A DNA stretch of 64,000 bases from Geodermatophilus sp. YIM 151500 (GTDB lineage Bacteria; Actinomycetota; Actinomycetes; Mycobacteriales; Geodermatophilaceae): positions 64,032 through 128,031 of the forward strand of contig NZ_JAOVZT010000003.1 of NCBI RefSeq assembly GCF_025716945.1. Direction: 5' to 3'. A model generated the notes under the pieces. It had not been told where the DNA came from. It did no database searches and worked only from the letters and a program-made list of their open reading frames with translations. The first letter of the stretch is position 1. Each line of letters opens with the position of its first letter. Both the position numbers and the translations under genes were made by a program. This document shows, piece after piece, positions 27,753 to 29,489 of the stretch.

Positions 27753-28115
27753 TCACAGCGTCTGCGTCAGGTTGACGACGTTGCCGTCCGGATCTCGCAC
27801 GTGGGCGACCCGCTGGCCCCACGGCATGTCGTTGGCGCCGCTCTCGGCCCGGCCGCCGAGTTCGGCGACCCGGGGCAGCAGCGCGTCGACGTCCGGCACC
27901 TCGATGCTCAGCAGCATGCGGCTCGGCCCGCCGGCGACGACGTCGGCGCTGGCCGACAGGCCCAGCTCGGAGTCGCCTAGCTGGAGGCCGATGTAGGCGA
28001 GCGGCCCGTCCTCGGGATACCGGAACACCATCGAGGCGCTCAACAGCCCGGTGTAGAAGTCGCGGAGCCGGTCGATGTCCGGCGTGACGATGATCGGTCG
28101 GACGGTGGCGGGCAC
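27753..28115 (-). CDS. VOC (glyoxalase/bleomycin resistance) family protein
   Basis: A 120-residue single vicinal-oxygen-chelate module. It begins VPATVRPIIVTPDIDRLRDFYTGLL and ends WGQRVAHVRDPDGNVVNLTQ, the standard two-repeat beta-alpha-beta-beta-beta pattern. GTG 28115 was chosen for AGGAGG six bases upstream. Single-module VOC proteins act as dimers in metal-dependent isomerases, dioxygenases or resistance proteins; no substrate can be named. It is the last gene before the dif-containing gap. Confidence 0.87.
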   Translation of the reverse strand: MPATVRPIIVTPDIDRLRDFYTGLLSASMVFRYPEDGPLAYIGLQLGDSELGLSASADVVAGGPSRMLLSIEVPDVDALLPRVAELGGRAESGANDMPWGQRVAHVRDPDGNVVNLTQTL

Positions 28116-28233
28116 GCGGCCTCCTGGCGGACTGCGGATCGCGGCGGTAGCCGCGGGGGGCTGCGCCGGTGGGGACATCTCACCGCGGAGCCGCCGGTCC
28201 GGTACAGGGGCCAGGGCGGCGGGCTCTGACTCC

Positions 28234-28261
28234 AGTTGACATAATGTGCATTATCGGCGGA
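28234..28261 (-). other. dif: Chromosome dimer resolution site dif (XerC/XerD)
   Basis: Read on the minus strand: XerC-type arm TCCGCCGATAA (28261-28251), central six TGCACA (28250-28245), XerD-type arm TTATGTCAACT (28244-28234). The XerD arm matches the E. coli arm TTATGTTAAAT at 9 of 11 positions, and CCGATAAT with ACATTATGTCAA is the actinobacterial dif core as I remember it. It is AT-rich, intergenic, single-copy in the window, and lies where gene orientation switches. Confidence 0.85.
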
Positions 28262-28729: not shown

Positions 28730-28969
28730 ATGCACATCCGACGTCCGCTCGCCGCCCTGTTCACCGCGCTGGCGCTGCTCGGGGGTGGCGGCGCGACGTT
28801 GACCGCGTGCGGTGACCCGGCCGGTCAGGACCGGTCCGACGGCACCACCGACGAGTCGGGCAACACCGGCGGAGCGAACCCCGGCGACGAGTCGCAGGGC
28901 GACCTGCCCGACAACACGAACCCGGAGCCGGGTCAGGACCAGGACGGCGACACCCAGGACCCGGACTGA
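28730..28969 (+). CDS. Small acidic lipoprotein
   Basis: A 79-residue protein with a lipoprotein signal: basic MHIRRP, a hydrophobic stretch, then the lipobox LTAC with Cys 27. The mature part is about 50 residues, disordered and very acidic (Asp, Glu, Gly, Asn, Gln). TAGGGT six bases before ATG 28730 indicates a leaderless mRNA. Lipid attachment would need Lgt/LspA and could be completed by the Lnt encoded at 34587. No family recognised. Confidence 0.72.
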   Translation: MHIRRPLAALFTALALLGGGGATLTACGDPAGQDRSDGTTDESGNTGGANPGDESQGDLPDNTNPEPGQDQDGDTQDPD

Positions 28970-28981
28970 CGGCGACCGGGG

Positions 28982-29377
28982 TCAGCCGGAGCGGCCGTTG
29001 ACCCACAGCCGGTCGAGCCGGCCGGTGCAGCGCACCAGATCGGCCAGCGACCGCTCGAGCTCGGCCTTGGTCGGCTTCTCGGTGAGCAGGGTCTGCACGT
29101 CCTCGAGGGCGCAGCGCAGCTGGTAGAGCCGGTCCTGGAGGCTGTCGAGCTCACCGCGGCTGACCAGGACGACGTCGTCGGGCAACCCGGCCTTGGTCGC
29201 CGCCGACCGCTGCTCGTAGGCGCGCTGCCGGCACGCCTGACCGCAGTACAGCCGGGGGCGGCCCACCGAGCCCTGCTGCGGCAGCACGCGGTGGCACCAG
29301 CCGCACCGGCGCTGCTGGTCGCTCCCCCGCTGCCCGGACGGCGCCAACTCGGCGACCGAACCCTCCTGCTGTGCCAC
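28982..29377 (-). CDS. Zinc-finger protein with coiled-coil tail, hypothetical
   Basis: A 131-residue protein. Residues 18-50 contain CGWCHRVLP and RPRLYCGQACRQRAYEQR, a four-cysteine zinc-finger arrangement seen in many actinobacterial hypotheticals and at the end of CGNR proteins. The C-terminal half is helical and probably coiled coil (LDSLQDRLYQLRCALEDVQ). Start GTG 29377 was chosen because TACCGT lies eight bases upstream, the leaderless pattern seen repeatedly here. It is convergent with the lipoprotein gene. The role is unknown; DNA binding is possible. Confidence 0.7.
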   Translation of the reverse strand: MAQQEGSVAELAPSGQRGSDQQRRCGWCHRVLPQQGSVGRPRLYCGQACRQRAYEQRSAATKAGLPDDVVLVSRGELDSLQDRLYQLRCALEDVQTLLTEKPTKAELERSLADLVRCTGRLDRLWVNGRSG

Positions 29378-29489
29378 GACTGCGCACGGTAGCCGCCGGT
29401 ACCGACGGCCGACCGCGGACACGCCCGAGCGTCCACCCCCGCCGGAGCGCGCGGCGGCGGGTCCCGGAGGGTCGCTAGCGTGTCGGTCC

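Follow-up and report, generated by a model that had tools for sequence, protein, structure and literature searches.

The 64,000-nucleotide stretch of the Geodermatophilus sp. YIM 151500 genome analysed here (the window) carries on its minus strand, at positions 28,234-28,261, a 28-bp sequence that is almost certainly the chromosomal dif site of this Geodermatophilaceae bacterium. The initial annotation had proposed a dif site at this place, and the proposal is supported by the agreement with the published dif of Frankia alni at 25 of 28 bases, the occurrence as a single copy, the conservation across the family and the position at the chromosome terminus.

Structure of the dif site

The minus-strand sequence of 28,234-28,261, TCCGCCGATAATGCACATTATGTCAACT, consists of an XerC-side arm TCCGCCGATAA (28,251-28,261), the central region TGCACA (28,245-28,250) and an XerD-side arm TTATGTCAACT (28,234-28,244), all read on the minus strand; the coordinates and strand given initially for the arms flanking TGCACA are exact. 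With a GC content of 43% against 75.8% for the window, the site is indeed the AT-rich island it had been described as, while the 614 bp given for the surrounding gene-free stretch is the upper end of a range of about 550-614 bp that depends on the start codon picked. This gap is bounded by a glyoxalase-family gene (27,753-28,178 at most, minus strand) and a small ORF starting at 28,730. Many long ORFs span it on paper, as expected at such a GC content.

Comparison with known dif sequences

The dif sequence of F. alni, likewise an actinobacterium, was reported as CACGCCGATAATGCACATTATGTCAAGT (Kono et al. 2011, PMC3025954). The site in the window has the same central hexamer and departs from it only at positions 1, 2 and 27, all three of which are variable in the family and the phylum. 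The XerC-side arm, to which a role is assigned by homology, matches the F. alni arm at 9 of 11 bases, and the XerD-side arm does so at 10 of 11. With Escherichia coli dif the site shares the 11-6-11 layout and 19 of 28 bases overall, comprising 6 of 11 in the XerC arm and 9 of 11 in the XerD arm, the latter being the count already obtained in the initial annotation. The best score to F. alni dif in each of two simulated genomes (order-1 Markov, 4.77 Mb) was 19/28. Over 400 kb of sequence from the contig carrying the site (C33, dif at 92,265), the runner-up also scored 19/28. The 28-mer is not a chance match.

A scan of public genomes with a degenerate core returned at least 119 stretches. Among the matches listed, the record titles are nearly all actinobacterial, the motif is spread over many actinobacterial families, and named members of Geodermatophilaceae have the same site. 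The core had been said to fit the actinobacterial dif pattern, and the comparison agrees, with TGCACA the same in F. alni and the dif profile of the phylum matched. Across the 128 sites compared, which were chosen by pattern so that their fixed positions provide no independent evidence, the freely variable positions are 1, 2, 13, 14 and 27. Positions 13-14, the second and third bases of the centre, differ from species to species; in the family genomes they depend on the genus, being GC in some and CG in others, and in one genus (g12) several genomes have ACG instead of ACA within the centre. An actinobacterial dif is also present in an unverified record titled 'Bacillus sp. AZ43' (SPQJ01000009.1), in which the genes flanking dif are mostly 76-85% identical to those of the window; this record looks mislabelled.

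Copy number and conservation in the family

The genome of strain YIM 151500 (4.77 Mb in 53 contigs, 99.8% complete) contains one match to the 28-mer at up to 3 mismatches over its whole length, in line with the single copy anticipated at the outset, and a reversed control pattern had no match in this genome at the same threshold. The 22-base dif core was present, at up to 2 mismatches, in 94 of the 99 Geodermatophilaceae genomes sampled, and the control pattern had zero matches among the 99. Each of the 94 genomes has one copy, except for one MAG (76% complete) with two, one of which is at a contig edge.

The gene at 28,982-29,422 (minus strand), which has no Pfam match and is used here as a synteny marker only, lies near dif in the majority of the family loci that were compared, at about 1.0-1.4 kb (2.1 kb in one locus) and with its orientation kept. 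Its protein identity among Geodermatophilaceae loci is about 70-84%. A glycerophosphodiester phosphodiesterase gene usually comes next after it in the family loci. Both genes being kept, dif therefore sits in a conserved terminus neighbourhood.

The standard motif was not found in one relative, G002, whose genome is a single contig and 99% complete. At the syntenic place, 48.8% of the chromosome away from dnaA, G002 instead carries TCCTCCGATAAGACACGTTATGACAAGT, composed of TCCTCCGATAA, GACACG and TTATGACAAGT (L167:1498-1525; G002:C1 near 4,488,263). This divergent site also adjoins the conserved neighbour gene (76% identity) and is very probably the dif of G002 with a changed XerD arm. A lineage-specific co-variation of dif and Xer within the family, with genus-dependent spacer types and the G002 XerD arm TTATGACAAGT perhaps matched by a co-evolved XerD, is conceivable, though rather unlikely.

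Position at the chromosome terminus

In seven relatives that have a single-contig genome and the standard motif, dif is separated from dnaA by about 46.4-49.5% of the chromosome; these distances involve two rounded chromosome lengths and were taken from relatives, the genome of strain YIM 151500 itself being in 53 contigs. In the contig of the window the position was read from polar octamers, which were learned de novo as sequences biased to the leading strand, from 1.2 Mb sampled from three relatives, with strain YIM 151500 left out. The top octamers were CGGGGGAG, GGGGGAGC, TGGGGGAG, GCGGGGGA and GGGGGAGG, with the common core GGGGGAG. In contig C33 this core occurs 37 times on the plus and 2 times on the minus strand left of dif, and 11 and 97 times, respectively, on the right. 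Within the window, the left replichore side has 15 plus-strand and 1 minus-strand occurrences (1,479-25,560), the right side 0 and 13 (29,322-57,485), so that the prevailing orientation on either side, plus on the left and minus on the right, is toward dif. The maximum-likelihood change point falls between -2,680 and +1,088 bases of dif (89,585-93,353 of the contig), and the strand-sum statistic of the octamers is 121, whereas 5000 permutations of the labels gave no value above 73. Thus, the site lies opposite oriC, as judged by the dnaA distance in relatives and by the polar-octamer switch in its own contig, and the chromosome terminus is located in the window, as had been claimed.

De novo learning from relatives gave the actinobacterial polar octamers, with no difference found, and these change strand at the dif of the window. 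The FtsK motifs of E. coli (GGGNAGGG) and of the B. subtilis type (GAGAAGGG) had no sharp switch at dif, and literature searches on GGGGGAG/KOPS and on Geodermatophilaceae dif returned nothing useful. The GGGGGAG octamers are predicted to be the sequences read by FtsK in this lineage.

Cumulative GC skew over 400 kb of contig C33 gave a nearly flat curve with its extreme at 234,394, which is 142 kb from dif, and the GC skew of the sampled relatives is likewise very weak. Plain GC skew failed to locate the terminus because its signal is too weak in this genome of about 75% GC.

Xer and FtsK machinery and the predicted resolution of chromosome dimers

The genome of strain YIM 151500 has genes for XerC, for XerD and for an FtsK that carries the gamma domain; the FtsK-gamma domain is present once. 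With gene names read from translations, xerD lies at 25.7 kb of contig C33 (25,707-26,219), flanked by ald and by a parA-like gene; xerC lies at 588 kb of contig C22, flanked by dprA and by a sigma-factor gene. Both proteins are tyrosine recombinases with HxLRH, LGH and tyrosine motifs. The XerD-type protein scores 327.3 bits against TIGR02225, just below the NCBIfam equivalog cut-off of 329.6, and the XerC protein scores 298.2 bits against TIGR02224, just below the cut-off of 335.2. The spacing between xerD and dif on contig C33 is only about 66 kb.

By analogy with the E. coli Xer system, XerC and XerD are predicted to bind this dif, with strand exchange and activation by FtsK taking place there. 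The TCCGCCGATAA arm would be occupied by XerC and the TTATGTCAACT arm by XerD. Once sister chromosomes have been joined into a dimer by recombination, FtsK would be loaded and steered by GGGGGAG-type octamers pointing to dif from either side. It would pair the two dif copies at the septum and activate XerD; strands would then be exchanged across the central TGCACA, yielding two monomers.

Alternative explanations

Plasmid cer/psi-like sites and attachment sites look like dif, and mobile elements are able to use dif itself, so the sequence could in principle be another Xer site, either cer/psi-like and of plasmid origin or the attachment site of an XerCD-using integrative element. The site in the window occurs only once in the genome, however, on a chromosomal contig of 407 kb, and it lies at the polar-octamer switch between genes that are syntenic across the family. 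The single copy and the syntenic conservation refute this explanation in practice, and we regard it as extremely improbable.

The 28-mer also holds an inverted repeat and is located on the 5' side of the glyoxalase-family gene (minus strand), as would be the case for a regulator operator or a promoter of that gene formed around a chance AT-rich inverted repeat. Yet the glyoxalase-family gene is beside dif in only 5 of 25 family loci (a minimum, some of the loci being short), and the 28-mer is kept where this gene is absent or replaced; moreover, among the matches listed in the public-genome scan, conservation of the motif extends across the phylum. Because the conservation is independent of the neighbouring gene, this explanation is refuted as well, with a negligible probability left to it. 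A chromosomal dif site is the reading retained.

Significance of the dif site

The dif of the window is a standard textbook element that is found in the chromosome of nearly every relative, and the terminus and octamer result is helpful for annotation but no surprise. The site fixes the replication terminus of the draft genome and the replichore orientation of contig C33. In very GC-rich actinobacteria, polar octamers pin dif down to a few kb, which plain GC skew is unable to do.
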